Shown in pieces: positions 7,155-27,835 of a stretch of 32,042 nucleotides of DNA. The notes below the pieces were generated by a model, which did not search any database, was not told the origin of the DNA, and saw only the letters and a program-made list of their open reading frames with translations. The stretch is from Bacteroidales bacterium (GTDB lineage: Bacteria; Bacteroidota; Bacteroidia; Bacteroidales; UBA12481): the NCBI GenBank assembly GCA_012523435.1, contig JAAYIP010000094.1, forward strand, positions 1 to 32,042, written 5' to 3'. The position numbers and the translations under genes were made by a program. How positions within the stretch are numbered: the first letter of the stretch is position 1; every line of letters starts with the position of its first letter.

Positions 7155-8051
7155 GTGGAAATCCGAATTGAGAATCTGGACAAGATTTATAAAAACGGTC
7201 ATAAAGCCCTAACGGATATTAACCTAACCATCGAGGACGGGATGTTCGGACTGCTGGGCCCTAACGGAGCCGGAAAATCCACCTTGATGCGCATTTTGGT
7301 GACCTTGATGAAGCCGTCAAACGGCAGGGTTTTGGTCAACGGCATGGATCTGCAAAAACACCGGAAAGAGGTCAGAGCACTGCTTGGCTATCTTCCCCAG
7401 GACTTTAGATTCTTTGCCAAGTATCGTACCTGGGAGTTTCTCGACTATTCGGCCCGGTTGGCGGGTCTGAAAAACCGAGCCCAGCGAAATCAGGCTGTGG
7501 AGCAAATGCTGGAGCAGGTTGGACTTTATGAAGCTCGCGATCGGCGTGCCGGAAGGCTATCCGGCGGGATGAAAAGAAGGCTGGGAATTGCTCAGGCCAT
7601 AATCGGCGATCCAAAAATCCTGATTGTTGATGAACCAACTACCGGGCTGGATCCTGATGAACGAATCCGCTTCCGGAATATCCTTTCCAAGATGACCGAA
7701 AAGGAGATGATCGTTATCCTCTCAACCCATATTGTTGGCGATATATCGAGTACCTGCCGCAGTATGGCCCTCCTGGAAAAGGGGAAGCTGGTATTCGTAG
7801 GAGCACCTGACGAGCTGATCGACCGTTCAAAGGGCCATGTCTTCCAGATGACCGTGTCAACCAAAGAGTTTGAGGAGATAAAAGAAAAATACAACGTGAT
7901 CTCAACTATCCCTTCGGTCGAAGGATGGGATATCCAGGTGGTTGCTGAAGATACGGGCGATCTGCCTTCAACACTTATTGAGCCTAACCTGGAACATGCT
8001 TACGTCTATTTTATGGAACTGCTGCTGAACAAGAATAAAGAACTTTTTTAG
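7155..8051 (+). CDS. ABC transporter ATP-binding protein (ABC-2 type), first gene of the ABC/RND operon
   Basis: The 298-residue protein is a complete ABC nucleotide-binding domain with a C-terminal extension. In order: beta-1/A-loop IRIENLDKIYKNGHKAL (Y12), Walker A GPNGAGKS (35-42), Q-loop YLPQD (Q82), signature LSGGMKRR (135-142), Walker B ILIVDE (155-160), D-loop GLDP and H-loop STHI (H192). The start is GTG at 7155. It should energise the membrane protein encoded 2 bases downstream. The C-terminal part (GHVFQMTVS onwards) resembles the tail of the ATPase domain fused to the second RND pump in the same operon (GHVWQVEVS), and both share GLDP-ERIRFRN and STHI--DISS-C; the two ATPases are clearly paralogous. 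The substrate is unknown. Confidence 0.93.
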   Translation: MEIRIENLDKIYKNGHKALTDINLTIEDGMFGLLGPNGAGKSTLMRILVTLMKPSNGRVLVNGMDLQKHRKEVRALLGYLPQDFRFFAKYRTWEFLDYSARLAGLKNRAQRNQAVEQMLEQVGLYEARDRRAGRLSGGMKRRLGIAQAIIGDPKILIVDEPTTGLDPDERIRFRNILSKMTEKEMIVILSTHIVGDISSTCRSMALLEKGKLVFVGAPDELIDRSKGHVFQMTVSTKEFEEIKEKYNVISTIPSVEGWDIQVVAEDTGDLPSTLIEPNLEHAYVYFMELLLNKNKELF

Positions 8052-8053
8052 CC

Positions 8054-11000
8054 ATGAAAACAATACGAACCATCCTGACCATAGCCTGGTTTGATATGCT
8101 GATCCTGTTCAGGAGCTGGTTTTTCCGCATTTTTAGCGGGCTGGTCCTCCTGTTCCTGTTGGTCATGAACCTCGCTATGATGGGGGAATCATCCGGTAAC
8201 TGGGGAGTAATCGGCATTGCGTCGAACATCCCTTATTTCAATATCCTCTTCCTGAGCATTAGCCAGACCTTCATCGCCATGTTTCTGGCGTTGGATTTCC
8301 TTAAGCGGGACAAGAAATTGGATACCTCAGAGGTTATCTATACCCGCTCGATGTCCAACTGGTCGTATGTTTGGGGTAAGACCATCGGAATCCTTGGAGT
8401 TTTCCTGGTGCTCAACCTCTTAGTACTGATTCTGGCGTTGATCATCAATCTGGTTTCCCAGAATGTAGCCATCGATTGGCTGGCTTATCTTTATTATCCG
8501 TTGCTGATTACTATCCCTTCGCTGATATTCGTGTTGGGCCTCTCCTTCCTGGTCATGTCGCTGGTAAAAAACCAAGCTATCGCCTTGGTGATCCTTCTGG
8601 GTTATACCGGGCTGATCCTGTTCTTCGGCAAAGCCCACGGTGATTATGTTTTTGATTTCATCGGCAACCTGATCCCCATGGTTCACTCAGATGTGACGGG
8701 GTTTGGATACGAGGGACGCCTGGTCTTACAACGCCTGATCTACCTGATGCTTGGATTATCCTTTATCTCAGCTAGTATTCTGTTGCTGAAGCGATTACCT
8801 CAATCGAGAGTTCTCTCCGCAACCACCTGGTTGATGACTTTCACTTTCGGTATCTTGGCCGGAGCCGGAATCCTTTACTATACCTCCACGGCTTCGGCGG
8901 ATCAAAAATACCGGGCCGACCTGATTGCGCTGAACGATCAGCACGACAATCTGCCCGTATTGTCGCTCGACCAGTGTGACCTGACCGTGGATCATAAAGG
9001 TGACAAGCTAGCCATTACTGCTGCCATGCAGCTTTCAAATGCCACGCTCAATCCAATCGAAAATACCGTTCTTAATTTGAACCCAGGCTTTAAAATCAAC
9101 TCACTCGAAATTAACGGCGCAAAATCTACTTTCGAACAAAAGGAGCATCTGCTGCTGCTAAAATTTCCAGGGCCACTGCTTCCGGGCGATACGATCCGTT
9201 TGCAGATGGATTACAGCGGATCAGTTGATGAAAGGGTCTGTTATCTTGATATTAAGAAGGAACAAGCTGATGAGAAATGGGGACCTGATTTTATCGTGTC
9301 GATCAAAAAACGTTTCGCCATTGTCGAACCAAACTATGTTATCGTAACTCCAGAGTCGGCCTGGTACCCAACCCCCGGAGTCCTTCACGGTTCAAACCTT
9401 TCCGTATTGCCGGTGTGGAACTTCACCACTTTCAACGCTAAAGTGAAAAGTGCTTCCGGCCTTCAACCCATCATGCAGGGTCCGGCCGAACAAGAGGGCG
9501 ATTATTGGAGGTTTGTACCGGAGAACCAACTAACTGGATTAACCCTGATTATTGGGCCATACGAAAGCCGAACCTTAAATACAGAAGATGTAGATTTTGA
9601 GTTAAATATACTGAAGGGGCACGATTACTTCAGTGCTGTTCTGGATTCAGTCGCGGATACCCTTCCGCGCTTTGTGGGTGACATGAAGCAAGATCTGGAA
9701 CGACGGCTGGGATTATCATATGCCTATCCAAGGTTGCGGATCGTTGAAGTTCCGGCTCAGTTCTACTCCTATTCGAGGTTGTGGGTCAAGCACCGTGAAT
9801 TTGTTCAGCCGGAAATGCTGCTGGTCCCGGAAATGGGAACCATGCTCAGCCAGGCTGGATTTGCCCAGTCGTACAAAATGATGGAGAAGCGTCTCAAGCA
9901 GAGCCAGGAGTCCTTGTCAGAGACCGAGATTCAGCTCCGCGTTCTGAACAATTTCTTGTCAACCAATTTCATCCCCGGGACAGACGATTTTCGGTTCCGG
10001 TTCAACGCTGGTTCCCGATCTGTTCAACTGGATAATGAAAAGAGGTACTCAGTCTTTCCCCATTTCTTTACCTATGTCAATTATGTTGGATCAAAAGAGT
10101 ACCCAATTCTCAATACCGCGCTGGAATCATATATAAGTAACACCGGTGAATCTGGAATGATGGGAGGATGGGGCGGAATGGGAATCTCTGGTTTAAACGT
10201 ATCAGAACAGGCAAATGTTGATTTGCAAAAAAAATCGTTTAAAGATTTGTTAGCCAGTGATTTGGATAATTATAATCTCCGGCAGGTGATTGATGCTAAG
10301 GGGCGGTATTTCTTTACTTACCTGGAGGCCATCGCCGGATCTGAAGAGTTTATGCCCTTCTTGCTTGGTGAGTTGCAGCGAAATAAGCATCAGGTTTATG
10401 ATTATTCAACATTTCGGGAGAATTTCCTGGAGCGGTTTGGGTATGACATGGACGAATTTGCCAATGAATGGTATTCAGGGCGACAGTTACCTGCATTCCT
10501 GGTTGGGAATGTCCGTGTGATCGAAGTGCAACAGGGTGATTATACTCGGTATCAATTGCTATTCGATGTATCCAATCCATCCGAGACTTCCGGATTGCTC
10601 CAAATTACGCTAAGAGCTGGTCGTGGAGGTATGGGAGGCGGCCGTGGAGGTGGCTTTGGAATGCGAGGTGGTGGCAGTTCTTTCGCCCTAGCGGGGCGGG
10701 ATGCCAACACGGAGAAGTTCTTGATCATGCCTCCTAATGAGGCTCTCCAGATTGGCTATGTGTTGGATGAACAACCACGCGGAATGTCGGTGAACACCAT
10801 GGTCTCTACAAATCTCCCTGTATCAGTCAGTTTCCCGTTTCCGGAAGTGGAGAAAGTCAAAGGTTATACCCCATTTGAGGGAATGCGACCGATTCCCATG
10901 CTCTTAACGATGGCAGGGGAGGGGGAGATTGTCATCGACAACGAAGATCCGGGCTTTTCAACTACTGGAAAGGCTGCCGATAGCCGGTTAGTGAGATGGT

Positions 11001-11494
11001 TCAATATAAATAAACCAACTGACGATGTCCCTTATGTGGCGATGCAGATGTGGCGTCCTCCGCAAAATTGGACCCCCATCATCCAGTCGGGCTTCTATGG
11101 CGATTTTGTCCGCTCTGCCTTGTATGTGAAGTCGGGCGACGGAACCCAGGTAGCTGAATGGAGAACTATCATTCAGGATCCTGGTTATTATGAAGTGATG
11201 GCCTATATTAATCCGATGACTGCTCGTATGGGGATTCGCATGGGCGGTCAGGGCGGCCGGGGAGGTGGTGGCCCTGGTGGCGGGATGCCGGAGATACCGG
11301 ATGAATACCACTTTACGGTAGATCATGACGAAGGGCAGGACGAAGTGGTTGTTGCCCTGAAGAGTGCCGAAACTGGATGGAACAGCCTGGGATCCTTCTA
11401 TTTCTCGGCTGACACCTCACGGGTGGAGCTGAATAACAAGAATAGCGGTCGAACTGTCGTGGCTGATGCAGTGAAGTGGGTTAAGCAGAAGTAA
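8054..11494 (+). CDS. ABC-2 permease fused to M1-aminopeptidase-like region (no HExxH) and golvesin-type C-terminal domain
   Basis: The 1146-residue protein combines three parts. Residues 1-275 form an ABC-2 type permease with about six membrane helices (first at about 26-43) plus one near 257-276. Residues about 300-830 form a large extracytoplasmic region reminiscent of the M1 aminopeptidases found fused to ABC permeases: beta-rich start, then LRIVEVPAQFYSYSRLW and a helical part. No HExxH zinc motif occurs anywhere, so it is presumably non-catalytic. Residues about 957-1146 (IVIDNEDPGFSTTG, then GYYEVMAYI, and finally GWNSLGSFYFSAD and VVADAVKWV) match the golvesin/xanthan-lyase-type carbohydrate-binding-like domain. 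Glycine-rich runs occur at 855-874 and 1060-1078. It pairs with the ATPase 2 bases upstream. The permease call is firm; the M1 relation is moderate. Confidence 0.8.
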   Translation: MKTIRTILTIAWFDMLILFRSWFFRIFSGLVLLFLLVMNLAMMGESSGNWGVIGIASNIPYFNILFLSISQTFIAMFLALDFLKRDKKLDTSEVIYTRSMSNWSYVWGKTIGILGVFLVLNLLVLILALIINLVSQNVAIDWLAYLYYPLLITIPSLIFVLGLSFLVMSLVKNQAIALVILLGYTGLILFFGKAHGDYVFDFIGNLIPMVHSDVTGFGYEGRLVLQRLIYLMLGLSFISASILLLKRLPQSRVLSATTWLMTFTFGILAGAGILYYTSTASADQKYRADLIALNDQHDNLPVLSLDQCDLTVDHKGDKLAITAAMQLSNATLNPIENTVLNLNPGFKINSLEINGAKSTFEQKEHLLLLKFPGPLLPGDTIRLQMDYSGSVDERVCYLDIKKEQADEKWGPDFIVSIKKRFAIVEPNYVIVTPESAWYPTPGVLHGSNLSVLPVWNFTTFNAKVKSASGLQPIMQGPAEQEGDYWRFVPENQLTGLTLIIGPYESRTLNTEDVDFELNILKGHDYFSAVLDSVADTLPRFVGDMKQDLERRLGLSYAYPRLRIVEVPAQFYSYSRLWVKHREFVQPEMLLVPEMGTMLSQAGFAQSYKMMEKRLKQSQESLSETEIQLRVLNNFLSTNFIPGTDDFRFRFNAGSRSVQLDNEKRYSVFPHFFTYVNYVGSKEYPILNTALESYISNTGESGMMGGWGGMGISGLNVSEQANVDLQKKSFKDLLASDLDNYNLRQVIDAKGRYFFTYLEAIAGSEEFMPFLLGELQRNKHQVYDYSTFRENFLERFGYDMDEFANEWYSGRQLPAFLVGNVRVIEVQQGDYTRYQLLFDVSNPSETSGLLQITLRAGRGGMGGGRGGGFGMRGGGSSFALAGRDANTEKFLIMPPNEALQIGYVLDEQPRGMSVNTMVSTNLPVSVSFPFPEVEKVKGYTPFEGMRPIPMLLTMAGEGEIVIDNEDPGFSTTGKAADSRLVRWFNINKPTDDVPYVAMQMWRPPQNWTPIIQSGFYGDFVRSALYVKSGDGTQVAEWRTIIQDPGYYEVMAYINPMTARMGIRMGGQGGRGGGGPGGGMPEIPDEYHFTVDHDEGQDEVVVALKSAETGWNSLGSFYFSADTSRVELNNKNSGRTVVADAVKWVKQK

Positions 11495-11563: not shown

Positions 11564-13033
11564 ATGAAAGCTAGAACGTTCTTAGGGGTGGCAATTTTTT
11601 TCGCTGGTTTAACCGGACTGGCTCCCCTGCATTCGCAGCAATTGATCAAACTAGATGATGCGCTGCAGATCGCTGCACAGAACAGCCCGGACATCAAGCG
11701 GGTTGAGCTGAGCCTAATCCGCACCCAGGAGTTGCTTAAGGCAACCCAGGCGTCAATGAAATCTAATTTCCGCTTCACCCTGAATCCGATCGGCTACTCG
11801 CACGACAGAGCTTTTAATGAATTGATCGGAGATTATAATACGCAGGAGAATCTGAGCAGTGCGGGGACCTTTACTGTATCACAACAGTTACCCTGGACCG
11901 ATGGTAATATCTCACTTAATAACCGATTTGCCTGGCAGCGGGCTTATAGTGAGTATGCCGACCGTACCACTTCCCAGTTTACTAATAACCTAAGGATCCA
12001 ATACGATCAGCCCCTCTTTACCTATAACCGGATTAAAATGCAGCTGGCCGGTCTGGAGCTGGACTTTGAAAATACCCAGCTGAACTACAATATTCAAATG
12101 CTCAATCTAGAGCGTTCGGTTGCCCAACAGTTTTATGCTGTTTTTAATCAACAAATGCGCGTCGAAATTGCTAAGGAAGAGCATGAGAATCAGAAAGTTA
12201 ACTATGAAATTATCAAAAATAAGGTTGAAGGGGAGCTGGCCCGATTAGAAGAGCTGTTTCAGGCTGAACTGAACCTGGCCTCCAGTAAATCGAGCTGGGA
12301 CAACAGTCAAGTTAGCCTAGAGAATGCTAAAGATCAGTTCAAAATTTTGATCGGCATGGACCTTTTTAACGAGATCGATATCCTAGCTAATCCGATCGTG
12401 GACACCGTACCTGTCGATCTGAACCTGGCTATCGAGTATGCCCTGGCAAACCGGATGGAATTGAGGCAAAGGCAGATCAGTATCGAGAATGCGCAGTTTG
12501 ACTTGGTCAGAACTATGGCTACCAACGAGTTTGCTGGAAACTTTTCATTGGCAGTAGGTCTCTTTGGAGACAACGAGCAGCTTCCAAAAATTTATTCAAA
12601 TCCGACGGATAACGAGCAAATCAGCCTGTCATTTCAGATTCCAATCTTTGATTGGGGTGAGCGAAAAGCCAGAATCAAAGCATCACAAACAAGCATTGAA
12701 ACACAGAAGCTTAACATGGAAGATGAGCGCAACACCATTATCCAAACTGTCCGCCAGGTTTATCGAAACTTGCAGAACCTGCTGAATCAGATTGATATTG
12801 CTCAACAGAACGTTAGGAATGCCCAGTTGACTTACGATATCAATCTAGAGCGTTATAAGAATGGCGATTTGACCGGGATGGATCTGAGCTTGTACCAGAA
12901 TCAGCTTTCTTCGAAGAAACTTGATTTGGTCAACGCTCAGATTAATTACAAGTTAGAATTGCTGAATATGAAGATTCAAACCCTGTACGATTGGGAAACC
13001 AAGACTGCGATTGTTCCACAAACATCTAAATAA
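11564..13033 (+). CDS. TolC-family outer membrane efflux protein
   Basis: The 489-residue protein starts with a signal peptide (residues 1 to about 24, ending PLHSQ) and continues LIKLDDALQIAAQNSPDIK, the usual first helix of outer membrane efflux proteins. Two homologous halves with long coiled-coil helices follow (about 150-270 and 360-475), rich in Q, N, A and L, separated by beta segments; the second repeat begins DLNLAIEYALANRMELRQR near residue 285. Trimers form the outer membrane channel and periplasmic tunnel of tripartite pumps. It is the only TolC-like gene of the operon and must serve both RND pumps and possibly the ABC modules. It lies 69 bases after the permease fusion gene and 12 bases before the adaptor gene. 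Confidence 0.92.
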   Translation: MKARTFLGVAIFFAGLTGLAPLHSQQLIKLDDALQIAAQNSPDIKRVELSLIRTQELLKATQASMKSNFRFTLNPIGYSHDRAFNELIGDYNTQENLSSAGTFTVSQQLPWTDGNISLNNRFAWQRAYSEYADRTTSQFTNNLRIQYDQPLFTYNRIKMQLAGLELDFENTQLNYNIQMLNLERSVAQQFYAVFNQQMRVEIAKEEHENQKVNYEIIKNKVEGELARLEELFQAELNLASSKSSWDNSQVSLENAKDQFKILIGMDLFNEIDILANPIVDTVPVDLNLAIEYALANRMELRQRQISIENAQFDLVRTMATNEFAGNFSLAVGLFGDNEQLPKIYSNPTDNEQISLSFQIPIFDWGERKARIKASQTSIETQKLNMEDERNTIIQTVRQVYRNLQNLLNQIDIAQQNVRNAQLTYDINLERYKNGDLTGMDLSLYQNQLSSKKLDLVNAQINYKLELLNMKIQTLYDWETKTAIVPQTSK

Positions 13034-13045
13034 TCATTACCGAAA

Positions 13046-14116
13046 ATGAAATCGATCCGAAACCCCTTAGTTGTTCTGGTTTTTTCCGGATTAACCCTCA
13101 TCCTGATCAATGGATGCCGTACCCAGCAAACCGACGCTACCACAGAAGTGGCTGTGCCGGTCTCCATTATGGACATCAGGCCAGCGTCAATTGAGGAATA
13201 TATTGAAACCAATGGAACTGTCTATCCAACGCAGGAGGTAGAATTAAAATCGGAAATGACAGGACGTTATTATCTCCAAAATAATCCCCGAACTGGTAGG
13301 CCATGGGCTTTGGGCGACCGGGTCAGGACAGGAGATCTGATTGTGAAGGTTGAAGACGAGGAGTATGTGTCTAATATTCAAATCGATTCAAAGGGAATAA
13401 ACCTGGAAGTTTATAAAAATGAGGTTGAAAAGCAACAGTCTCTTTACGAAAAAGGGGGAGCTACCCTGCGGGAACTTAAAAACTCGGAGCAAACTTTCAT
13501 CAATGCGGATTATGCTTATAAAAGTGCTCAGTTACAGCTGCAAAAGATGAATGTGATTGCTCCTTTTGACGGAGTTATTGTGGATTTGCCTTACTATACC
13601 AAAGGCAACAAACTCTCGTCTGGGCAGTCGCTGGTAAAGATTATGGATTACCGGAAACTCTATATGGAGTTTCAGCTTCCCGAAAAGAACCTGACTAATG
13701 TGAATGTTAATCAGCGGGTTAGGGTACTGAATTATGCCCTTCCAGATGATACGCTTTATGGGAATATCAGTCAACTCTCTCCAGCTATTAATCCCGATAC
13801 AAGAAGTTTCAAGGGAACTATAATGATTCAGAACGATGACTTGCGCCTGAGGCCTGGGAGTTACATCAAGTCGGAGATCATAACCCTGCGAAACGATAGC
13901 ACGATAGTGATTCCAAAGAAAATCATTGTTTCGCGCCAGAGAGGGAAGACAGTTTTTGTTGTTGACCAAAATACTGCCATGGAACGCGTGATTACCACTG
14001 GACTGGAAAATCCGGATTCGGTCGAAGTGATCCGCGGATTAAAAATGAATGATCGGGTTGTCATTGAGGGATTTGAGACACTAGGCAACCGCTCGAAAGT
14101 TAAAATCGTCCGTTAA
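13046..14116 (+). CDS. RND efflux periplasmic adaptor subunit (membrane fusion lipoprotein)
   Basis: The 356-residue protein has a lipoprotein signal with lipobox LING-C24, so it is probably anchored in the inner membrane by lipid. The order is typical of AcrA/MexA-type adaptors: first beta-barrel strand and half lipoyl motif (about 40-110, with GDRVRTGDLIVKVED), a short coiled-coil hairpin (about 115-165), the second half lipoyl motif (VIAPFDGVIVDLPYY and then GQSLVKIMD), the beta-barrel (about 200-285) and the membrane-proximal domain (about 285-356, ending NRSKVKIVR). It bridges the inner-membrane RND pumps to the TolC-like channel. There is a single adaptor for two RND genes. It lies 12 bases after the TolC gene and 20 bases before the first RND gene. 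Confidence 0.93.
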   Translation: MKSIRNPLVVLVFSGLTLILINGCRTQQTDATTEVAVPVSIMDIRPASIEEYIETNGTVYPTQEVELKSEMTGRYYLQNNPRTGRPWALGDRVRTGDLIVKVEDEEYVSNIQIDSKGINLEVYKNEVEKQQSLYEKGGATLRELKNSEQTFINADYAYKSAQLQLQKMNVIAPFDGVIVDLPYYTKGNKLSSGQSLVKIMDYRKLYMEFQLPEKNLTNVNVNQRVRVLNYALPDDTLYGNISQLSPAINPDTRSFKGTIMIQNDDLRLRPGSYIKSEIITLRNDSTIVIPKKIIVSRQRGKTVFVVDQNTAMERVITTGLENPDSVEVIRGLKMNDRVVIEGFETLGNRSKVKIVR

Positions 14117-14136: not shown

Positions 14137-17100
14137 ATGAGAAAATTAACCGAGTTTTCAGTCAGGTACCCGGTCACCGTTACCATGTTTATCCTGGCTG
14201 TGGTGCTGTTGGGGTTCATCTCTTTTGGAAAACTGGGGACCGACCTGTTTCCAAAGCTTAACAATCCCCGGATTTATGTAGAGTTAAAAGTTGGAGAGCG
14301 TCCCCCCGAAGAAGTTGAGAAGCTGTTTGTCGATCCGATTGAATCGGTGTGTATCAGGCAGGGTAAGGTAGTTGGTGTTTCTTCGGTTACCCGTGTGGGG
14401 ACTGCCCAGGTAACGGTGGAGTATGCCTGGAACGCCGATATGGATGACGCCTTTTTGGAACTCCAGAAGGCCTTGGGAACTTATTCCCAAAATGCTGAGA
14501 TCGACGAACTTCTGATAACCCAGCACGATCCCAACGAGTCGCCGGTGATGTTGGTGGCATTGCAGCACGAAAATCTCACCGATATGGACGAGTTAAGACG
14601 TATCGGGGAAAACTATATCCGGAACGAACTGGTCAGATTGGAAGGGGTAGCAGATGTCCAGCTCGAAGGTCAGGAACAGAAGGAAGTGCTGATCAGCACT
14701 AATGAGTATTTGCTCAATGCCTTTGGCGTGACAACTACCGAGATCACCTCGCAAATCACAAACTTTAACCGGAATATCTCTGGAGGGTCCATCGTCGAAA
14801 TGGGTACCCAATACGTTATTAAAGGAGTCAGCGTATTTTCTAACCTGAATGATATCCGGCAACTGATTGTGGGGTTTAAAACGGAGACCACCACCGAAAA
14901 TGCCACCGCAACAAACACATCGCGCGTTCCTGTTTTTCTCAGGGATGTAGCTGAGGTGCAATTCATCAACAAAGAACCCGATAATATCGTTCGAATAAAC
15001 GGTCAACGAGCCCTCGGACTGGCTATCTACAAAGAGCCCAGTTTTAATACCGTTAAGGCCGTTGAAGAGTTGAAGAAAGCTCTGGTAAAAATCAACAAGG
15101 CCCTTCCCGGATACACCTTTCAAATCATCCAGGATCAGGGAACCTTTATTTCATCAGCCATCGGTGAAGTGCAAAATAGTGCACTCATCGGAATCCTTCT
15201 GGCAGTATTCGTATTGTTTATCTTCCTGAGACGCATCGGAACCACCCTAATCGCTAGTGTCGCAATCCCGGTATCCATTATTGCTACATTTAACTTGATG
15301 TACTTCAATGGCCTGACTATCAACATTATGACGTTAGGTGGTCTTGCATTAGGTGCGGGTATGTTGGTGGATAACGCTATCGTTGTTTTGGAGAATATTT
15401 TCCGGAACCTGGAAAAGGGAATGAGCATCCGAGAGGCTGCCATCACCGGGACCTCACAGGTTGGCGGGGCAATTTTTGCTGCTACGCTGACAACCATCGT
15501 GGTCTTTCTGCCTATTGTATATCTCCATGGTGCCTCTGGGGAGTTGTTTAAAGATATGGCTTGGACCGTAGCTTTCTCGTTGATCTGCTCCCTAATAGTC
15601 GCTATTCTGGTCATTCCAATGCTCTTCCCTAGAGTTATCAAGCCGATCGCTGCCGATAAACAAGCCAAAGCGATGGGCTTTAACTGGTATCCCCGTTTTC
15701 TAGATAAGGTATTGAAAATTAAGTGGTTAATTGTTTTTGCTGCTTTTATACTGATCGGAGTGGCAGCACTTCTTATCAAGCCCATCGGGAGCGAATTTAT
15801 GCCGAGAACCGATGCTCGTGAATTTACGGTAGAAGTGAGGTTGCCCGAAGGTACTCAACTGGAGCGAACAGACGAGGCTGTGAAATCCCTTGAAGGAATG
15901 ATCCGTGAATTGATCGAAGAGGACCTGGAGAAACTGTATGTCCGTGTCGGACCATCAGCTAGCGCGGTGAGCAGTCAATCCATTTTTGAAACCGAAAACT
16001 CTGCTTCCATTAAAATCATACTGACTAACGAGGCACATCGCTCCAGCAGCGTGTTACTGGCGGACTTAGGGAAGCTCTTTGAAACGATGCCTGATATCGA
16101 ATTTAACTTTGTCCTCGACGAGACAGCCCTGATGGCTACTTTGGGAACTGATGAAGCTCCTGTTGTGGTAGAAGTTGTTGGCGAGAAACTGGATCAGATC
16201 GAACGATTAGTGACAGAGGAAGAGGAGATCCTTCATAATGATCCGGATCTTTTTAATATAGAATCGTCAATCAAACCCGGAGCTCCTGAGATTGAGTTAG
16301 TTTTGGATCGATACCGGGCTGGAATGTATAATATCACTATAGATCAGGTCATTAGTCAGTTGACGCAATTGCTGACCGGAACATCAGCTGGTCAGTTCGA
16401 CTATAGTGGAGAGATGACGGACATACGACTGAAGTTACCTGATGTAGAACTCAGTCAGCTTGAGAACCTTGAGCTTCGAGCGGGCGCAAGTAAGGTCAGG
16501 CTAAGTGAAATAGCCACGGTACGCCATGTAGTTGCTCCGAAAGAGATTCTCCGGACCAATCAAAATCGGGTAGGGAAGGTTTCGGCTCAAATCAAGAAAG
16601 GAAAGCCGGTGAATCAAGTGATCAATGACCTGAACCAGTCTCTTAGCGGGGTTGTTCTACCTCCGGGTTATACGATCCGTCAAGCCGGTGAGGAAGTTAA
16701 GCGGAAAGAATCGATGAAGAATCTCGGGTTTGCGCTTCTTTTATCACTGGTATTGGATTATATGGTACTTGCTTCCCAGTTTGAATCGCTCATTCATCCA
16801 TTCACGATCATGTTGACCATTCCATTAGCTGTGGTAGGATCTGTTTTTCTCTTCTTCATTCTTGGTCTCTCCTTCAATATGATGGCTTATATTGGGATCA
16901 TCATGCTGGCGGGGATTGCCGTGAACAACGCTATTATCCTGCTGGATTCGATTAATCGATTGAAACGAGCGGGGATTAGCCGCAGAGAGGCCATACTGGA
17001 AGCAGGTCACCAGCGCATCCGTCCCATCCTGATGACCAGCCTTACCACGATTTTGGGATTATTGCCAATGGCTATCGGGTTTGGACCCAATGCCGTCTTA

Positions 17101-17238
17101 AGGACTCCCATGGCTCTGGCTGTAATTGGTGGTTTGGTTACCAGCACGCTGTTAACCCTGATCGTAATCCCCTGTGTGTATGATCTGTTAGATCGGATCA
17201 TGCCTCAAAGAAAATATGTCGATGGTCAAATCAGCTAA
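14137..17238 (+). CDS. RND efflux pump inner-membrane subunit (first of two)
   Basis: The 1033-residue protein has the complete RND layout: TM1 (about 12-30), first periplasmic porter/docking block (about 35-335), TM2-TM6 (about 345-500), TM7 (about 530-548), second periplasmic block (about 555-855) and TM8-TM12 (about 862-1015). TM4 contains GAGMLVDNAIVVLENIFRN, where D412 corresponds to AcrB D407, but the next residue is N413 in place of AcrB D408. TM10 reads GIAVNNAIILLDSIN, with N930 where AcrB has K940. This D-N/N-N pattern occurs in a broad COG0841 subclass, so it is not by itself degeneration. The 12-base spacing to a second RND gene suggests a heteromeric pump, as in MdtBC. Substrate unknown. 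Confidence 0.93.
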   Translation: MRKLTEFSVRYPVTVTMFILAVVLLGFISFGKLGTDLFPKLNNPRIYVELKVGERPPEEVEKLFVDPIESVCIRQGKVVGVSSVTRVGTAQVTVEYAWNADMDDAFLELQKALGTYSQNAEIDELLITQHDPNESPVMLVALQHENLTDMDELRRIGENYIRNELVRLEGVADVQLEGQEQKEVLISTNEYLLNAFGVTTTEITSQITNFNRNISGGSIVEMGTQYVIKGVSVFSNLNDIRQLIVGFKTETTTENATATNTSRVPVFLRDVAEVQFINKEPDNIVRINGQRALGLAIYKEPSFNTVKAVEELKKALVKINKALPGYTFQIIQDQGTFISSAIGEVQNSALIGILLAVFVLFIFLRRIGTTLIASVAIPVSIIATFNLMYFNGLTINIMTLGGLALGAGMLVDNAIVVLENIFRNLEKGMSIREAAITGTSQVGGAIFAATLTTIVVFLPIVYLHGASGELFKDMAWTVAFSLICSLIVAILVIPMLFPRVIKPIAADKQAKAMGFNWYPRFLDKVLKIKWLIVFAAFILIGVAALLIKPIGSEFMPRTDAREFTVEVRLPEGTQLERTDEAVKSLEGMIRELIEEDLEKLYVRVGPSASAVSSQSIFETENSASIKIILTNEAHRSSSVLLADLGKLFETMPDIEFNFVLDETALMATLGTDEAPVVVEVVGEKLDQIERLVTEEEEILHNDPDLFNIESSIKPGAPEIELVLDRYRAGMYNITIDQVISQLTQLLTGTSAGQFDYSGEMTDIRLKLPDVELSQLENLELRAGASKVRLSEIATVRHVVAPKEILRTNQNRVGKVSAQIKKGKPVNQVINDLNQSLSGVVLPPGYTIRQAGEEVKRKESMKNLGFALLLSLVLDYMVLASQFESLIHPFTIMLTIPLAVVGSVFLFFILGLSFNMMAYIGIIMLAGIAVNNAIILLDSINRLKRAGISRREAILEAGHQRIRPILMTSLTTILGLLPMAIGFGPNAVLRTPMALAVIGGLVTSTLLTLIVIPCVYDLLDRIMPQRKYVDGQIS

Positions 17239-17250
17239 GGAATCAGTCAG

Positions 17251-20200
17251 ATGAGGATTATTGTAACCAGAAAAGTCCTGATCTCCATGGTCTTTCTCGG
17301 GCTAACCCTGCTCGGGATAGTATCCTACCGGCAACTACAGGTTGAACTGTTTCCAAATGCCCAGGCACCCTACCTGGTGGTGCAGGTTTCTTCGAATGTC
17401 GAAGTGGACCCGGCTTATATGGAGCGTCAGGCAGTGATCCCCCTGGAGGGAGCTATTGGTGGATTGCAGGGAATCGAAGAGATTTCGTCAACCGCATCCC
17501 AAAGAAGGGGAACGATCACCATTTCTTATACACCAAAGACAGATCTTAAATACGCTCAGCTCAAGCTACAAGAGCGGATTAATGAAGTCAAAGGCTCCAT
17601 CCCGGAAGAGTTTCAGGTGATGGTGGTCAAAGTCGACCTCGAACAGATGGCTAACCAGGCTATGGCGCTCGAAGTGAGAGGTACAGGCGGCGTTAATCGG
17701 ATCAGACAGATCGCTGACGAAAAAATCAAACCCAGGCTTGAGAATATTGACGGAGTGGCCGGCATTACCGTTTACGGTGGTCAGGAGAAAATGCTGGAGG
17801 TGACACTCAATCGCGATGCCTGTGAGGCCTACGGAATCACTCCCTATCAGGTCAGAAATGCCATAAGCCAGAACGGGCGCGACCGTACCTATGTCGGCCG
17901 GGTGTTCCAAAGCAACCGCATGCATTTTGTTCATGTGATGGCCGAATATACCGATGCCCGCGAAATAGAAAATATAGTCGTCAGGGAAGCCGGACCAGTT
18001 TTGCTTCGCGATGTAGCCTCGGTCTATTTTGGCGTGAAGGAGGAGACCTCTTTTTCGCGGGTTAACGGCCTCGAATCGGTTACCATTAACCTGGTTGGAG
18101 ACTCCCAGGTCAACCTCATCGACCTGTCCGATTCAGTCAAGGAAATGGTTAATCAGCTGAATAAGGAGTTTGAACCCCTGGAAATTGAGATTATGATCCA
18201 GGAGAATATGGCCGAGATCATGGAGGAGAATATCAAACAGATTGTTAATCTGGCCATTACGGGTGGTGCTATTGCGGTTTTTATCCTTTGGATCTTCCTG
18301 AAGAATGTCCGCCTGGTGACCAGCATTGCACTTTCTATTCCAATTTCGGTTTACGTTGCCTTTAACTTTTTCTATGCCGCGGGGATTTCTATCAATAGCC
18401 TGACACTAGTTGGTATGGCACTGGCAATTGGGATGCTGGTGGATAACAGTGTGGTTGTTCTGGAAAATATATACCGGCATGCGGCCGGGCGAACCCATCC
18501 GGATATTGCTGTGGTGAAGGGTACGCGGGAGGTTTGGAGGTCAATCCTGGCGTCAACACTGACCACAATCACAGTTTTTCTCCCCTTCCTCTTTTCCGAT
18601 AACTACATGATCCGCATCCTCGGAAGTAACATCGGGATATCCATCATCTCAACACTACTGGTTTCGATGATGGTTGCCCTGTTGCTGATCCCCATGCTGA
18701 CCCACCTGATCCTCCAGCGCCAACCAGATAAACGTCCGGTAATCTTTGAGAAAGTTTCGCTTCATAAACGATTGATTCAGTTTTATCTGCTCATTCTCAA
18801 GTCTAGCATGAGAAATCCGGCTGCTACAATTGTCGGAGCCCTGGTGCTGTTTTTTGTGAGCCTCTTCGGGGTTCTCGCGATCTCAACCAATACACTGCGA
18901 GAAGCCGAGACCCGTGAGCTACGTTTGGCAATTACGATGCCTCAGGGAACCACCCTGGAGGTAACCGATCTTGCAGTGAAGGCCATGGAAGAACGACTCA
19001 TGGAGATTCCGGAGCGAGAGGAGATCGTCACCGAAACACAGGAAGCTCAAGCGACTGTTCGTATTAAACTGGTGGAGAAGTTCGAGAAGGTGGCCGACAG
19101 GAAACTCCCAGAAATTAAGTCAGATATAGAGAAAAGAATCCGGAATATCCCCAACGTTGAATACGAATTTCAGCAGTTTTCATCCAGTGGTGGTTTCTCT
19201 GCAGGAGGGGCTGGCGGTGGCGGAGGCCAGTCGGGCGGAGGCCTGGAATCATTCCTTGGCGTTGGCATTCAACAAGAAAGAGTTATCATTAAGGGTCAGG
19301 ATTTTGATATGATGAAATCTGTGGGTGAAGACCTCACCTACTACCTGGAAGATCTGCCCACCATTCAACAGGCAAATTTAGGAGTTCAGGATAACCGACC
19401 AGAAGTGAGAATGGCGTTCAACACCAGAGAGATGGGAGAGAGAGATGTCCCCCTTAACTCGGTGACATCAGAACTCAGCTCATTCCCAACCGAATTCAGC
19501 ACGGGCGTTACTTTTAAAGAAGGAACTGAAGAGTACGATATCCTGATAAAATATGACCTGCCGGATGATGAGGAGGAGAGAACACGTACCATGGCCGATC
19601 TCCAGGAGATGGATATTCCGTCAAGCACCGGTGCTCGCCATCGGCTTACCGACCTGGCCAATATCTATTTCGCTTTTGGAATGGGTAATATCAACAGATT
19701 AAACCAGGAAAAGCAGATTCAAATCACCTACCGGTTTGATGCTGAGACAAATGCATCAAAACCAGTGCTTGAAGCAGCCAGAGAAGAGGTGGATGCCCTG
19801 GTTGCCAGCTTGATTGTTCCAGCTGGGATCGCCATTGAAGTTCAGCATGAAGAGAACGAGTTTAAGGATTTCTATTTTCTGATAGCTGCTGCCTTTATCT
19901 TCATTTTCATGATCATGGCAGCGGTTTTCGAGTCTATTAGCACCCCTTTTGTACTGCTATTTTCGATACCGTTGGCAGGCATCGGTTCATTCCTGGCCAT
20001 TTTACTTACCAACAACTCCCTGATCAATGCCAATACCCTGACTGGTTTCATTATTCTGATTGGTATTGTGGTGAATAACGGTATTATCCTGATCGACTAT
20101 ACTAATGTGTTGAGGAAACAGGGATTTCGTAGAAGCAGAGCACTGATGGTAGCTGGTTTGGCACGGCTACGCCCTATTCTGATAACTGCGGCTACCACCA

Positions 20201-21987
20201 TAGTGGCTATGTTGCCGCTGGCCCTTGGTAAATCGGAGTATGTCAGCCTCATCGGAGCACCTTTTGCCATCACGGTAATCGGAGGCCTTGCCCTGAGTAC
20301 GATTCTTACACTGGTTTTCATTCCCACCCTCTATTCGGGACTGGAAAATTCCCTGAAATGGATGCGGGATCAGTCGACGGGCACCAAGATATTTATGTAC
20401 ACTACCATCCTGCTGCTGGCAGTGCTAATCTATTTCCAAATCCACACCTTTATCTGGCAGCTGGTGCTGATGCTCCTGGTGATTCTCGGCGTCCCGGCAT
20501 CTACCTGGTTCCTGCGTAATAGTCTGAAAAAGGCTAGCTCGAAGGTTATCGCTGATGATGAACCCATTCTAATCCAGATTCAAAACCTGGTGAAGATTTA
20601 CGAGCGCGACAACCGCTTTACCCGTCAGTGGAAAGCCGGTACTGCTATCCGTCGACGCCTTGGAATCGAAAAAGAGGTTACCTCCTGGAAAGACCTGGAA
20701 AACCTGGTTTGGCAGCTGCCACTGCTGGGCTTCCTGATCTTCTTTGTCTATTTCTACCTTGAAGCAGGAATCTGGATCCTACTGCTGAGTTTTGCGATTT
20801 GGTTCTCATTGTTAGGCATTCAACAATCAGTCAATCAGTTAATTAATTACAAGAAGAGCATAGGTAAAGGTATTTGGCGACTGGTGCCTAAAGGGCTCTC
20901 CAAATGGATTGGGGCATTGATTCTATGGGGATTCCCGGTATTTAGCCTGGTGGTTTTTCATCAACGCTGGGGAAATATCGCTTTGGAGGTGATCATTGGT
21001 GTCTTGTGGTTCTTAGGGATCATTGTGTTCCTGACCTCTAATCGTTTGATGCGTGAAAAAGTCAATATCAACCGACTGAAAGGCCGATTTGCTGTTATTC
21101 GTCGCCGGTGGTACCAGTTGGTTCAATCTATCCCAGTTATCGGGAAAAAGCGTAAGCCATTCAAAGCACTTAAGGGTGTTTCAATGGAGATTGGGAATGG
21201 CATGTTTGGATTGCTGGGGCCTAATGGTGCCGGGAAGACAACCTTGATGAGGATCATCTGTGGCATCCTGGAGCAGAGTTATGGGAAGATTTGGATAAGT
21301 GGAATCGATACGCAGGAGAAACGGGAAGAGCTTCAAGGGCTGATTGGCTATTTGCCGCAGGAGTTTGGAATGTACGAAAACATGACTTCTGAAGAATACC
21401 TTAGTTACCAGGGAATTCTAAAGGGGATCAAAGATCCTGCTCTTCGTTCCGAACGGGTTGAATATGTGCTGAAAGCAGTGCATAAGTTCGATCGAAAAGA
21501 TGAAAAAATTAGTAGTTACTCGGGCGGGATGAAACAACGAATAGGGATTGCACAGATTCTGCTGCATTTACCAAGAATACTGGTAGTAGATGAACCCACG
21601 GCCGGTCTTGACCCACGTGAACGAATTCGTTTCCGTAATCTACTGGTTGAGCTTTCCAAAGAGCGCGTGGTGATCTTCTCAACCCACATTATTGAGGATA
21701 TTTCAAGCTCCTGTAATCGTGTCGCTGTGCTCGACCGTGGAGAGATGGTGTACCTGGGCGTTCCTGAAGCAATGGCACGTACCGCTGAGGGACACGTCTG
21801 GCAGGTGGAAGTCAGCCTCGCTGAGTTTGACAAACTGTCTGAGGAGTACAAGATTGTCCATCATATGAGAGACGGCAAGAAAATTCGGGTCCGCCTCCTA
21901 GCCGAGAAGCCTCCTATGCCGGATGCCATCCCGGTGAAACCATTGCTGGAAGATTCCTATTTATGGTTACTGAAGAAAGTGATCTGA
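17251..21987 (+). CDS. RND efflux pump fused to a C-terminal ABC ATPase domain
   Basis: This 1578-residue protein joins two transporter classes. Residues 1 to about 1035 are a full RND pump: TM4 reads GMLVDNSVVVLENIYRH (394-410) and TM10 GIVVNNGIILIDYTN (938-952), with a glycine-rich loop at 645-664. Two further helices follow (about 1047-1063 and 1067-1087). Then come LIQIQNLVKIYER (1107-1119), like a beta-1/A-loop of an ABC domain; about four helices (1152-1170, 1172-1190, 1219-1237, 1243-1262); and the rest of the ABC domain from 1303: Walker A GPNGAGKT (1323-1330), Q-loop YLPQE (Q1370), signature YSGGMKQR (1423-1430), Walker B ILVVDE (1443-1448), H-loop STHI (H1479). All ATPase motifs are intact. 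Helix parity keeps the ABC part cytoplasmic. The frame is continuous, with no internal stop or obvious recent junction. The ABC-2 permease gene follows after 1 base. Confidence 0.92.
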   Translation: MRIIVTRKVLISMVFLGLTLLGIVSYRQLQVELFPNAQAPYLVVQVSSNVEVDPAYMERQAVIPLEGAIGGLQGIEEISSTASQRRGTITISYTPKTDLKYAQLKLQERINEVKGSIPEEFQVMVVKVDLEQMANQAMALEVRGTGGVNRIRQIADEKIKPRLENIDGVAGITVYGGQEKMLEVTLNRDACEAYGITPYQVRNAISQNGRDRTYVGRVFQSNRMHFVHVMAEYTDAREIENIVVREAGPVLLRDVASVYFGVKEETSFSRVNGLESVTINLVGDSQVNLIDLSDSVKEMVNQLNKEFEPLEIEIMIQENMAEIMEENIKQIVNLAITGGAIAVFILWIFLKNVRLVTSIALSIPISVYVAFNFFYAAGISINSLTLVGMALAIGMLVDNSVVVLENIYRHAAGRTHPDIAVVKGTREVWRSILASTLTTITVFLPFLFSDNYMIRILGSNIGISIISTLLVSMMVALLLIPMLTHLILQRQPDKRPVIFEKVSLHKRLIQFYLLILKSSMRNPAATIVGALVLFFVSLFGVLAISTNTLREAETRELRLAITMPQGTTLEVTDLAVKAMEERLMEIPEREEIVTETQEAQATVRIKLVEKFEKVADRKLPEIKSDIEKRIRNIPNVEYEFQQFSSSGGFSAGGAGGGGGQSGGGLESFLGVGIQQERVIIKGQDFDMMKSVGEDLTYYLEDLPTIQQANLGVQDNRPEVRMAFNTREMGERDVPLNSVTSELSSFPTEFSTGVTFKEGTEEYDILIKYDLPDDEEERTRTMADLQEMDIPSSTGARHRLTDLANIYFAFGMGNINRLNQEKQIQITYRFDAETNASKPVLEAAREEVDALVASLIVPAGIAIEVQHEENEFKDFYFLIAAAFIFIFMIMAAVFESISTPFVLLFSIPLAGIGSFLAILLTNNSLINANTLTGFIILIGIVVNNGIILIDYTNVLRKQGFRRSRALMVAGLARLRPILITAATTIVAMLPLALGKSEYVSLIGAPFAITVIGGLALSTILTLVFIPTLYSGLENSLKWMRDQSTGTKIFMYTTILLLAVLIYFQIHTFIWQLVLMLLVILGVPASTWFLRNSLKKASSKVIADDEPILIQIQNLVKIYERDNRFTRQWKAGTAIRRRLGIEKEVTSWKDLENLVWQLPLLGFLIFFVYFYLEAGIWILLLSFAIWFSLLGIQQSVNQLINYKKSIGKGIWRLVPKGLSKWIGALILWGFPVFSLVVFHQRWGNIALEVIIGVLWFLGIIVFLTSNRLMREKVNINRLKGRFAVIRRRWYQLVQSIPVIGKKRKPFKALKGVSMEIGNGMFGLLGPNGAGKTTLMRIICGILEQSYGKIWISGIDTQEKREELQGLIGYLPQEFGMYENMTSEEYLSYQGILKGIKDPALRSERVEYVLKAVHKFDRKDEKISSYSGGMKQRIGIAQILLHLPRILVVDEPTAGLDPRERIRFRNLLVELSKERVVIFSTHIIEDISSSCNRVAVLDRGEMVYLGVPEAMARTAEGHVWQVEVSLAEFDKLSEEYKIVHHMRDGKKIRVRLLAEKPPMPDAIPVKPLLEDSYLWLLKKVI

Positions 21988-21988
21988 C

Positions 21989-22705
21989 ATGTTCAAGAAA
22001 AGAATACAAATAATCTGGAACTGGATCTTTAATATGGTCCGGTATTACCTGAAAGTCATATTCGCGGGGAAATTTATCTGGTTTCTTCTCGCCTCATTGG
22101 GATTTTTTGTCATCGTATTGCTGATCACACTGTTTTCTGGCAATACCATCCACTCCGGTGTGGTTTATGAATTACTCTTATACCCGGGATTGCTTTTGGT
22201 ATTCTACCCGATAGTCTTTGGGATACAGAATGATGAGGATACCCGGATACTGGAAATCCTATTCGGCATACCTAATTATCGGTACAAAATCTGGCTTGTC
22301 CGTTTGATCTTGATCTATTTTGTGGTATTCCTGATTCTTCTCCTGCTGGCTATGTTCGGCTCCTGGGCTATCGTGGATTTCTCCGTTTTTAATATGGCTT
22401 GGCACCTGATGTTCCCAATCTTTTTTATGGGTACTCTGGCCTTTCTTCTGTCTACTTTTATTAAGAATGGAATTGGCACAGGCGTAGTCCTGATCATTAT
22501 CGGGGTATTTTTTCTGATTCTGGCTGATGCGATCGCCCGAAGCAAATGGAACCTTTTCCTTAATCCCTTCACCATCCCTGATGGAATGAGTGAAACAGCC
22601 TGGAAATCAATTGTTCAGGACAATCGAATCATTCTGTTTGTCGGAATGATTCTATCTCTTTTAGGAGGCCTGACAAGCCTTCAGAAGCGAGAACGGTTTA
22701 TTTAG
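21989..22705 (+). CDS. ABC-2 type transporter permease
   Basis: The 238-residue protein is almost entirely hydrophobic, with about six membrane helices (near 30-50, 60-80, 102-124, 138-157, 163-183, 212-231) and no enzymatic motif. The loop GIQNDEDTRILEILFGIPN (78-96) between helices 2 and 3 fits the amphipathic coupling region of ABC-2 permeases such as NosY, where it contacts the ATPase. Its gene begins one base after the RND-ABC fusion ends, so the fused ATPase is its most likely partner. It lacks the large periplasmic extension of the other permease in the operon. It is the last gene of the operon and converges on the M64 peptidase gene with 14 bases between stops; no hairpin is obvious. 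Confidence 0.85.
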   Translation: MFKKRIQIIWNWIFNMVRYYLKVIFAGKFIWFLLASLGFFVIVLLITLFSGNTIHSGVVYELLLYPGLLLVFYPIVFGIQNDEDTRILEILFGIPNYRYKIWLVRLILIYFVVFLILLLLAMFGSWAIVDFSVFNMAWHLMFPIFFMGTLAFLLSTFIKNGIGTGVVLIIIGVFFLILADAIARSKWNLFLNPFTIPDGMSETAWKSIVQDNRIILFVGMILSLLGGLTSLQKRERFI

Positions 22706-22719
22706 AGGAGAGCGATCCG

Positions 22720-23991
22720 TTATTTGGTATAGTAGTCGATCATCTCCTGGATCGTTTTCTGGCATACCGGGCAGAAGGGATCATTAATCCAGTTCATCTT
22801 GCACTTATTCATCGGGCTGTAAATCCCTTTGGCACTATACAGACCACCTTCGTATGCACCTACAACTCCTTTGTATTGATGGGTACGCGGAGTAGGAATC
22901 GGGGTGCCGGGCTTAACCATCGACTTCCACTTTTTATTGAAATCAACCAAAGTGGTTACATTGGGCTGAATTGGCTCAACCGTCAAATCAACGTAATCAC
23001 TGTAAGCAACATCACTGGTGTAATACTCGTCGGCTAACCAGGTGAAGCTGTGCCCAAACTCATGCACAAAGACCCCAACCGATTGTGGATTATAGGCAGT
23101 AAAGCAGCCGTAGTAGTTGTAAACCCCACCTCCACCATATTTGTCCGAATTGACCAGAATAATGATGGCATCGTAAGGGGCGTTGGCCGCAACATCACGA
23201 ACCGACTTGATGTCGTATGTCATGTTATAACGCTCACTGTCAAAGGTATAGAAGCTAGTATTCAGCAATGTTTCTTTGTAAATACCCTTGCCAGGGATAT
23301 CCGTTCCGGATTCGACTGACGGGGCCTCTACTAACCAAATATTAAACTTGTCCTCATTGGCGGTGAAGGGCGCAGAATCAAATAGCCCTTTCGAAAACTT
23401 CTTCACCGACTCCCGGAACTGATCCATCTCCCCCGCGGTAAAACCATCCGGCAGAAAAACAATATCAATCTTTTTGGTAGGATCTCCTGAATCGTGAACC
23501 ATGTAAGCCTTGTACACCGGTCCGGCTTCTTTCTTGATGAAATAGTCTTTAGGATCTATCTCATATTCAAATACTTTCTGGAGCTTTGTCTTGCGGTCCC
23601 GAGTTAATAATCGCAGCTTAACCGGATTTTTCGGGTAGGGTAACAGTACGGTTTCATAAAAACACCGCGAGGTCACCTTGGATTCAGCCGTGGATTGCCA
23701 TTCGCTAAAAAGCCCTGCATAGCCCCGCGAGTAGATCATCTTCTTCGATGTTTTATCATACACCTCAACCCGATATTCGCCCCAAGGAAAAGGATCAATA
23801 AGCCTGGTACGGGTCCCCGACCATTTGCCCTCCTGCCTCATGCCCTCAAAATAGACCTGCTCCGAGGTGGCAGTACCGCAGCGTTGGTAATCGAACCGTA
23901 ACGTGTTGTCGGTGAAGTAATCTTCATATCGAATCTGAGCCTGGCCAACGGTAAACGTCAGGCTGAGGAGCAAAAGAATCAGTTTGACCAT
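22720..23991 (-). CDS. secreted M64-family (IgA peptidase type) zinc metallopeptidase
   Basis: I start this 423-residue protein at ATG 23991-23989 because that gives a clean signal peptide (MVKLILLLLSLTFTVGQAQ); the longer frame reaching 24126 has a non-secretory N-terminus and would overlap the divergent channel gene. Residues about 20-140 fit the M64 N-terminal beta domain. The catalytic domain (about 155-423) contains IDIVFLPDGFTAGEM, the zinc motif HEFGHSFTWLADEY (H310, E311, H314, with D321 as probable third ligand) and a C-terminal cysteine pair NDPFCPVC. M64 peptidases include the Clostridium ramosum IgA protease and many Bacteroides proteins, but the substrate here is not known. It is probably exported through the Sec pathway; no sorting domain is visible. 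Confidence 0.9.
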   Translation of the reverse strand: MVKLILLLLSLTFTVGQAQIRYEDYFTDNTLRFDYQRCGTATSEQVYFEGMRQEGKWSGTRTRLIDPFPWGEYRVEVYDKTSKKMIYSRGYAGLFSEWQSTAESKVTSRCFYETVLLPYPKNPVKLRLLTRDRKTKLQKVFEYEIDPKDYFIKKEAGPVYKAYMVHDSGDPTKKIDIVFLPDGFTAGEMDQFRESVKKFSKGLFDSAPFTANEDKFNIWLVEAPSVESGTDIPGKGIYKETLLNTSFYTFDSERYNMTYDIKSVRDVAANAPYDAIIILVNSDKYGGGGVYNYYGCFTAYNPQSVGVFVHEFGHSFTWLADEYYTSDVAYSDYVDLTVEPIQPNVTTLVDFNKKWKSMVKPGTPIPTPRTHQYKGVVGAYEGGLYSAKGIYSPMNKCKMNWINDPFCPVCQKTIQEMIDYYTK

Positions 23992-24037
23992 GGTAGTAGT
24001 TTTTACTATTTTTAAACAGTAAAGGTAAATTACATTG

Positions 24038-24045
24038 TATTTTTG
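24038..24045 (+). promoter_or_regulatory. -7 element of a probable promoter for the mechanosensitive channel operon
   Basis: TATTTTTG matches TAnnTTTG and ends 30 bases before the channel gene ATG. No clear TTTG is found at the -33 distance. Just upstream, TTTACT (24002-24007) and AGTAAA (24018-24023) form a 6-base inverted repeat between the divergent genes that could be an operator or chance in AT-rich DNA. Confidence 0.4.
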
Positions 24046-24075
24046 CCAAAAGGATTTTAAAACTTCAAGCTGATT

Positions 24076-25386: not shown

Positions 25387-25388
25387 TC

Positions 25389-26693: not shown

Positions 26694-26701
26694 TCAAACT
26701 T

Positions 26702-27818: not shown

Positions 27819-27835
27819 AATCAGGTATCCTGATT
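27819..27835. terminator. possible bidirectional terminator hairpin between convergent genes
   Basis: AATCAGG-TAT-CCTGATT is a perfect 7-base stem with a 3-base loop, lying 27 bases after the PQ-loop gene stop and covering the last codons of the ABC-F gene on the other strand. No T-run follows on either strand, so an intrinsic terminator is only a possibility. Confidence 0.3.

Follow-up and report, generated by a model that had tools for sequence, protein, structure and literature searches.

A conserved protein of Bacteroidota joins an RND permease to a predicted split ABC ATPase within a seven-gene putative export operon

RND pumps figure in textbooks as proton antiporters, and ABC transporters as machines driven by ATP. 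Among the described tripartite systems, AcrAB-TolC and the other HAE-1 pumps resemble the locus reported here in the full-length ACR_tran homology of the permease, in the adaptor and in the TolC channel, and in MacAB-TolC an ABC ATPase works together with an adaptor and TolC. According to a review from 2021, the tripartite assemblies with ABC transporters are of type IV and type VII only (PMC8277102). The locus lies in a window of 32,042 nucleotides, the whole stretch of Bacteroidales DNA that was analysed (assembly GCA_012523435.1, contig JAAYIP010000094.1), and encodes a protein in which an RND permease and an ABC ATPase form a single chain. An earlier note, made from the sequence alone, had described a continuous frame of 1578 codons at positions 17251-21987. 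This frame was recovered on the forward strand as one ORF which starts with ATG, encodes 1578 amino acids and has no internal stop. The Pfam search bears out the claim that a full RND pump and an ABC ATPase are present in this chain. The N-terminal part is a full-length ACR_tran domain (residues 3-1029 against profile positions 4-1018 of 1021, E 4e-170), and the C-terminal part is an ABC_tran domain (residues 1307-1451, E 2.5e-28). The top PDB sequence match of the fusion is MdtB. RND and ABC models of NCBIfam match either half, and none spans both among the 25 best matches listed. The window contains no ambiguous bases, and the third-position GC content along the fusion frame runs without a sharp break. 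The genes of the operon, with the RND part of the fusion given separately, are the following.

7155..8051, forward strand: NBD-A, stand-alone ABC ATPase of 298 aa, first gene of the operon (Pfam ABC_tran, E 1.4e-33)
8054..11494, forward strand: ABC-2 permease with M1-aminopeptidase-like and Golvesin_C-like parts, 1146 aa (6 TM; Golvesin_C E 3.5e-13, weak ABC2_membrane_3)
11564..13033, forward strand: TolC-type outer-membrane channel, 489 aa (Pfam OEP, E 5.3e-42)
13046..14116, forward strand: RND periplasmic adaptor (MFP), 356 aa (TIGR01730 RND_mfp, 183.6 bits against a cut-off of 94.9)
14137..17238, forward strand: RND1, unfused second RND permease, 1033 aa (ACR_tran E 1.3e-212; relay D-N-N)
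17251..20355, forward strand: RND2 part of the fusion, residues 1-1035 (12 TM, porter and docking domains; ACR_tran 3-1029)
21989..22705, forward strand: 6-TM ABC-2 (type V) permease by predicted fold, 238 aa, directly downstream of the fusion (AF2 pLDDT 83.5)

The fusion of the two halves is real. The window comes from an assembly of 369 contigs, which might favour an assembly or frameshift artefact joining two genes. Against this stand 61 complete fused homologues from independent assemblies, cultured isolates among them, and the near-constant length of the insert across the homologues. The artefact reading is thus refuted, and the probability left to it is negligible. A missed stop or frameshift between the halves, of which the earlier note had warned, is likewise contradicted by the complete fused frames in many other genomes. 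With the C-terminal 548 residues as the query, the linker and the ATPase were found in 18 others of 99 related genomes. Complete fused frames of 1536-1595 aa are present in 12 Bacteroidales genomes among these 18; the remaining frames are shorter, mostly at contig ends. Five further carriers, with frames of 1561-1640 aa, were found among 395 genomes drawn evenly across the phylum. Two of the five belong to another class, within which 2 of 149 genomes carry the fusion. The fusion is therefore sparse outside its home groups. A separate genome collection was scanned with the downstream permease as the query, and the best 80 of the 473 relatives obtained were read; they comprise the 61 complete fused homologues, and the genome collections searched may overlap in part. 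Together with the window's own protein these homologues make up the 62 aligned fusions to which the counts below refer.

In the 80 loci read, the gene preceding the permease is a fused RND-ABC gene wherever the contig extends, is unmasked and is free of frameshifts, and none of the loci with enough sequence contains the RND and ABC halves as separate genes. An apparently unfused RND2 in one genome (G025) was rejected because the gene is cut by the contig end, and an apparently lone ATPase (L058) because masked bases lie upstream. Two copies from MAGs (L081 and L090) look frameshifted. The carriers include the cultured isolates Prolixibacter denitrificans, Draconibacterium sediminis, D. aestuarii, three Maribellus, Mariniphaga anaerophila, Tangfeifania diversioriginum and Puteibacter caeruleilacunae. 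Carriers with the labels KSB1, Krumholzibacteriota and Deferribacteres come from MAGs, and their binning may be wrong. The search of plasmids at E 1e-100 gave no match to the fusion.

The gene order NBD-A, ABC-2/M1-like permease, TolC, adaptor, RND1, RND2-ABC and 6-TM permease is conserved, both within Bacteroidales and in a second class of the phylum. The adaptor gene is the only one in the operon, which thus combines two RND genes with one adaptor and one TolC. NBD-A is 42% identical to the fused ATPase (fusion residues 1302-1575). In profile comparisons, the N-terminal part of the 1146-aa permease best matches TMD2 of permeases with the arrangement TMD1-TMD2-M1 (prob 98.6), and its C-terminal part matches the M1 part of the same proteins (prob 98.5). 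The HExxH motif was found in all four of the stand-alone TMD1-TMD2-M1 relatives inspected; of 14 operon copies of the 1146-aa permease, 13 lack it, and the other contains an HETKH string as a candidate only. The M1-like domain may be a pseudo-peptidase turned into a substrate-binding or adaptor domain.

The earlier note had regarded the gene downstream of the fusion as an ABC-2 permease, and the predicted fold of the 238-aa product agrees with this assignment. The AF2 model matches NosY with Z 16.2 and an rmsd of 3.8 over 219 aligned residues, a Z only moderately above the caution level for a helical bundle, and the top list of matches consists nearly entirely of ABC-2 permeases. By sequence, ABC2_membrane_3 is reached only at E 3.3 (Pfam). 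The most conserved stretch of the protein, GIQNDxDxRxLEILFGIPNYRYKVW, is situated in the loop after TM2, the place at which type V permeases contact their ATPase. Since the 1146-aa permease matches only the TMD2-M1 half of its relatives, its partner membrane half is missing and could be supplied by the 238-aa permease, whose profile match to TMD1 is weak (E 0.016, prob 2.8). The comparison suggests, short of proof, that the 238-aa permease stands in for the absent first half; if so, the fused ATPase may pair with NBD-A.

The operon is adjoined by genes for an M64 peptidase, an MscS-type channel, a GWxTD-domain protein and RlmB (22720-24126, reverse strand; 24076-27448, forward strand), a set which lies beside the operon in the closest relatives only. 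Elsewhere in the window, positions 124-1887 contain a 587-aa ORF with no Pfam match at E 0.001, and 27821-29761 on the reverse strand contain a 646-aa ORF with two ABC ATPase-like stretches as in ABC-F proteins.

The structure of residues 1036-1578 was predicted with AF2 from 41 aligned homologues (pLDDT 83.1, pTM 0.65). Behind TM12 of the RND part the fusion is arranged as follows.

20377..20526, forward strand: TM13-TM14 hairpin behind RND TM12, residues 1043-1063 and 1067-1092 (AF2 helices)
20560..20610, forward strand: first strand of the ABC ATPase with A-loop Tyr1117, residues 1104-1120 (AF2 strand 1108-1117)
20611..21141, forward strand: insert inside the ATPase, residues 1121-1297, a cytoplasmic helix followed by TM15-TM18 (AF2)
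21142..21984, forward strand: rest of the ABC ATPase and C-terminal extension, residues 1298-1515 and 1516-1578 (ABC_tran 1307-1451)

Within the insert the model places a cytoplasmic helix at 1122-1136, then TM15 (1146-1169), TM16 (1173-1204), TM17 (1216-1240) and TM18 (1243-1269). A further helix (1281-1293) and strand 2 (1304-1314) lead to Walker A. In ABC ATPases the segment from strand 1 to Walker A is usually one continuous stretch, which is not strictly defining, and NBD-A of the same operon is built in this way, its strand 1 being followed directly by strand 2. The sequence and the model agree that the fused ATPase is interrupted: an insert of about 175 residues with four predicted helices separates the first strand and the A-loop tyrosine from the rest. 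The predicted ATPase fold matches 1vpl with Z 26.7 and an rmsd of 1.7 A over 234 aligned residues, and 4yer with Z 28.6 and an rmsd of 3.5 over 264. From residue 1104 onwards the strand is matched to the very beginning of solved ABC ATPases, and the alignment of about 235 residues over a model range of 475 is as expected if the insert is skipped. A K-x-Y motif is found in the A-loop strand of all 62 fusions, with Tyr1117 at the A-loop position. The insert measures 161-178 aa in every one of the 62 (four hydrophobic peaks in 49, three in 13), and two hydrophobic peaks mark the TM13-14 region in 61. Two helices followed by four give a consistent topology, which would leave all of the ATPase on the cytoplasmic side; the predicted pose of the ATPase relative to the helices is not trusted at a pTM of 0.65.

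Of the 12-helix pump and complete ABC domain described earlier, the 12 TM helices of the RND part and the presence of both domains stand. The description has to be amended by the six extra helices, which bring the predicted number to 18 per protomer, and by the interruption of the ATPase near its N-terminus by the four-helix membrane insert. The insert has no Pfam family at the gathering score. TM13-18 were also considered as a degenerate ABC-2 membrane half and rejected: profile similarity to ABC-2 halves stays below prob 1, no Pfam family reaches its cut-off, and the PDB sequence match is only at chance level. The arrangement suggests that four membrane helices can be inserted between the first two strands of an ABC ATPase without loss of the fold.

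The motifs Walker A (G1323-T1330), Q-loop (Q1370), signature (S1424GGM), Walker B (D1447/E1448) and H-loop (H1479), which the earlier note had reported as intact, are all present. Each of them, and also the D-loop, is found in 62 of the 62 aligned fusions, the Walker B glutamate and the H-loop histidine included. By mean identity to the window's protein, the ATPase (1298-1515) is the most conserved region (77%), followed by TM8-12 (75%), TM2-6 (67%), the A-loop strand (63%), the two periplasmic parts (53% and 43%) and TM13-14 with the insert (37%). This pattern implies constraint on the ATPase as well as on the RND membrane core, and neither looks like a passenger.

Proton-relay positions were assigned by alignment to E. 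coli AcrB, MdtB, MdtC and CusA. In the fused RND, D398 corresponds to AcrB D407, N399 to D408, N942 to K940, R972 to R971 and T979 to T978. The aspartate D398 is kept in all 62 fusions, and asparagine occupies the D408 place and the K940 place in 61 each. RND1 has the same D-N-N pattern, with asparagine at these two places in 54 and 55 of 57 sequences. By alignment, two of the three AcrB relay residues are missing from both RND subunits, which retain the equivalents of D407, R971 and T978. The triad D-D-K is found in 18 of 20 other Bacteroidales RNDs compared. An RND from a tandem pair of the same genome (L006, G000 contig C98) has D-N-N in a frame of 1011 aa that lacks an ABC domain; L007, which is truncated ahead of the remaining position, has D-N. 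CusA has D-A-E at the relay places. Other RNDs do without the complete triad, so D398 may still support proton coupling, and the D-N-N pattern is no proof that this coupling is lost.

In the ATPase tree the fused ATPases form one clade (support 100/100), the NBD-A proteins of the fusion operons form their own (100/99), and stand-alone relatives from other Bacteroidota form a third (98/96). The tree separates these three clades jointly from six further ATPases of the genome (99/99), which are long branches. Read most simply, this topology implies that the fusion arose once, within the ATPase lineage linked to ABC-2/M1 permeases. In the RND tree the RND1 and RND2 clades each have a support of 100 and their union is without resolution, while MdtB and MdtC are sisters. 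Another locus (L029, G441 contig C6, 2-2893) contains a 964-aa frame whose C-terminal end (669-959) is an NBD-A-like ATPase, and next to it comes a frame of 1185 aa; it is possibly another unusual ABC fusion.

We propose that the products of the seven genes make up a single composite export machine, in which the fused ATPase would power an ABC-2 (type V) transporter tethered to the RND pump, and we give this proposal about an even chance of being correct. RND2-ABC and RND1 would form the inner-membrane RND trimer, which together with the single adaptor and the TolC channel would provide a passage through the outer membrane. The six extra helices, TM13-14 and TM15-18, would hold the cytoplasmic ATPase of RND2 at the membrane. 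Adjacency and the predicted fold point to the 238-aa permease as the membrane half powered by this ATPase, possibly in an ABC heterodimer that pairs the fused ATPase and 238-aa permease with NBD-A and the 1146-aa permease. We infer that the ABC half would move the substrate from the cytoplasm or the inner leaflet to the periplasmic face, from where the tethered RND half would take it out through TolC. Since ABC motors function as dimers, and since a second, unfused RND is encoded in the operon together with only one adaptor, three ATPases per complex are less likely. A heterotrimer of RND1 and RND2-ABC with one or two fused ATPases fits the two-RND, one-adaptor operon: one ATPase could pair with NBD-A, and two could pair with each other. 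Such mixed 2:1 RND trimers have a precedent in MdtB2C1 (PMC7015380). The fixed gene order, the two well-supported ATPase clades of the operon (100/100 and 100/99), the invariance of the motifs in 62 of 62 fusions and the high conservation of the ATPase argue for the composite machine. So do the NosY-like fold of the permease directly following the fusion, the combination of two RND genes with one adaptor and one TolC, and the reduction of the 1146-aa permease to a TMD2-M1 half which the 238-aa permease could complete. Against it count the weak match between the 238-aa permease and TMD1, the three-fold symmetry of RND pumps versus the two-fold symmetry of ABC transporters, which has to be reconciled, and the missing sister grouping of RND1 and RND2, unlike MdtB and MdtC.

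The fused ATPase could instead act on the RND cycle itself through TM13-18 by the membrane core, supplementing or replacing the proton drive. We know of no member of the RND superfamily whose cycle is energised by ATP. The loss of the D408 and K940 equivalents from both RND subunits, against D-D-K in most other Bacteroidales RNDs, makes such coupling somewhat more plausible without establishing it, and the six predicted helices would tie the ATPase to the membrane. Substitution of one relay residue in AcrB has been reported to abolish extrusion (PMC8277102). However, the D407, R971 and T978 equivalents are retained, CusA and L006 depart from the triad as well, the latter without an ABC domain, and a purely RND-directed ATPase would not need the separate ABC-2 permease that is always present. 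This adjacency was seen in loci located via the 238-aa permease, and the other genome searches met the permease beside fusions independently. We consider direct driving of the RND cycle by ATP unlikely.

It is also conceivable that the operon encodes two separate transporters, which the fusion would only co-localise and keep in stoichiometry, with no energetic hand-over. One would consist of NBD-A and the 1146-aa permease, the other of a dimer of fused ATPases (two RND2-ABC per trimer) with two 238-aa permeases. Relatives of NBD-A occur with TMD1-TMD2-M1 permeases and have no RND neighbour in the stretches read, and a 2:1 heterotrimer as in MdtB2C1 would provide exactly two fused ATPases. Yet only one membrane half is left in the 1146-aa permease, and the genes of the operon are inherited together; we regard both the mere co-localisation and this particular composition as doubtful. 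Finally, nucleotide binding might regulate the RND pump or its assembly, the ATPase serving as a gate or sensor instead of powering transport. Non-transport ABC-type ATPases exist in general, which leaves room for such a role. It is very improbable in view of the invariance of every catalytic motif in 62 of 62 fusions and the ABC-2 permease partner that is always adjacent. If the halves are coupled, this conserved polypeptide, with its ATPase split by membrane helices and its RND relay incomplete, offers a test of whether ATP can power an RND cycle and of how inner-membrane ABC export feeds a tripartite pump directly.

Each domain of the fusion belongs to a known family. The earlier note knew of no characterised example of a covalent RND-ABC permease, and none was found in the open-access literature (preprints outside the scope), which is weak evidence of absence; the architecture is apparently undescribed in the literature searched. 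The fusion differs from AcrAB-TolC and the other HAE-1 systems in its partly lost relay, its C-terminal ABC ATPase and its 18 predicted helices versus 12. MdtABC-TolC of E. coli likewise combines two RND permease genes, both full ACR_tran permeases, with one adaptor. MdtB and MdtC, however, have neither an ATPase nor extra helices, carry the D-D-K triad and are sisters in the tree, whereas RND1 and RND2 have D-N-N and no supported sister grouping. MacB of MacAB-TolC is a type VII (FtsX-like) transporter with four TM helices, whereas the operon proteins scanned gave no Pfam match to MacB or FtsX domains at E 0.001. The Bacteroidota ABC permease/M1 aminopeptidase proteins have an ATPase of a related clade and a homologous permease with an M1-like domain; unlike the operon proteins, they are stand-alone, with two membrane halves per chain, HExxH in the four inspected and no RND genes in the stretches read. 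The type V transporters NosDFY, PmtCD, Wzm-Wzt and ABCA/ABCG share the predicted ATPase fold (1vpl, NosF), and the 238-aa permease has the predicted fold of NosY and PmtCD. In contrast to these exporters, the ATPase described here is carried covalently by an RND permease, is interrupted by four predicted TM helices and stands in a tripartite setting.
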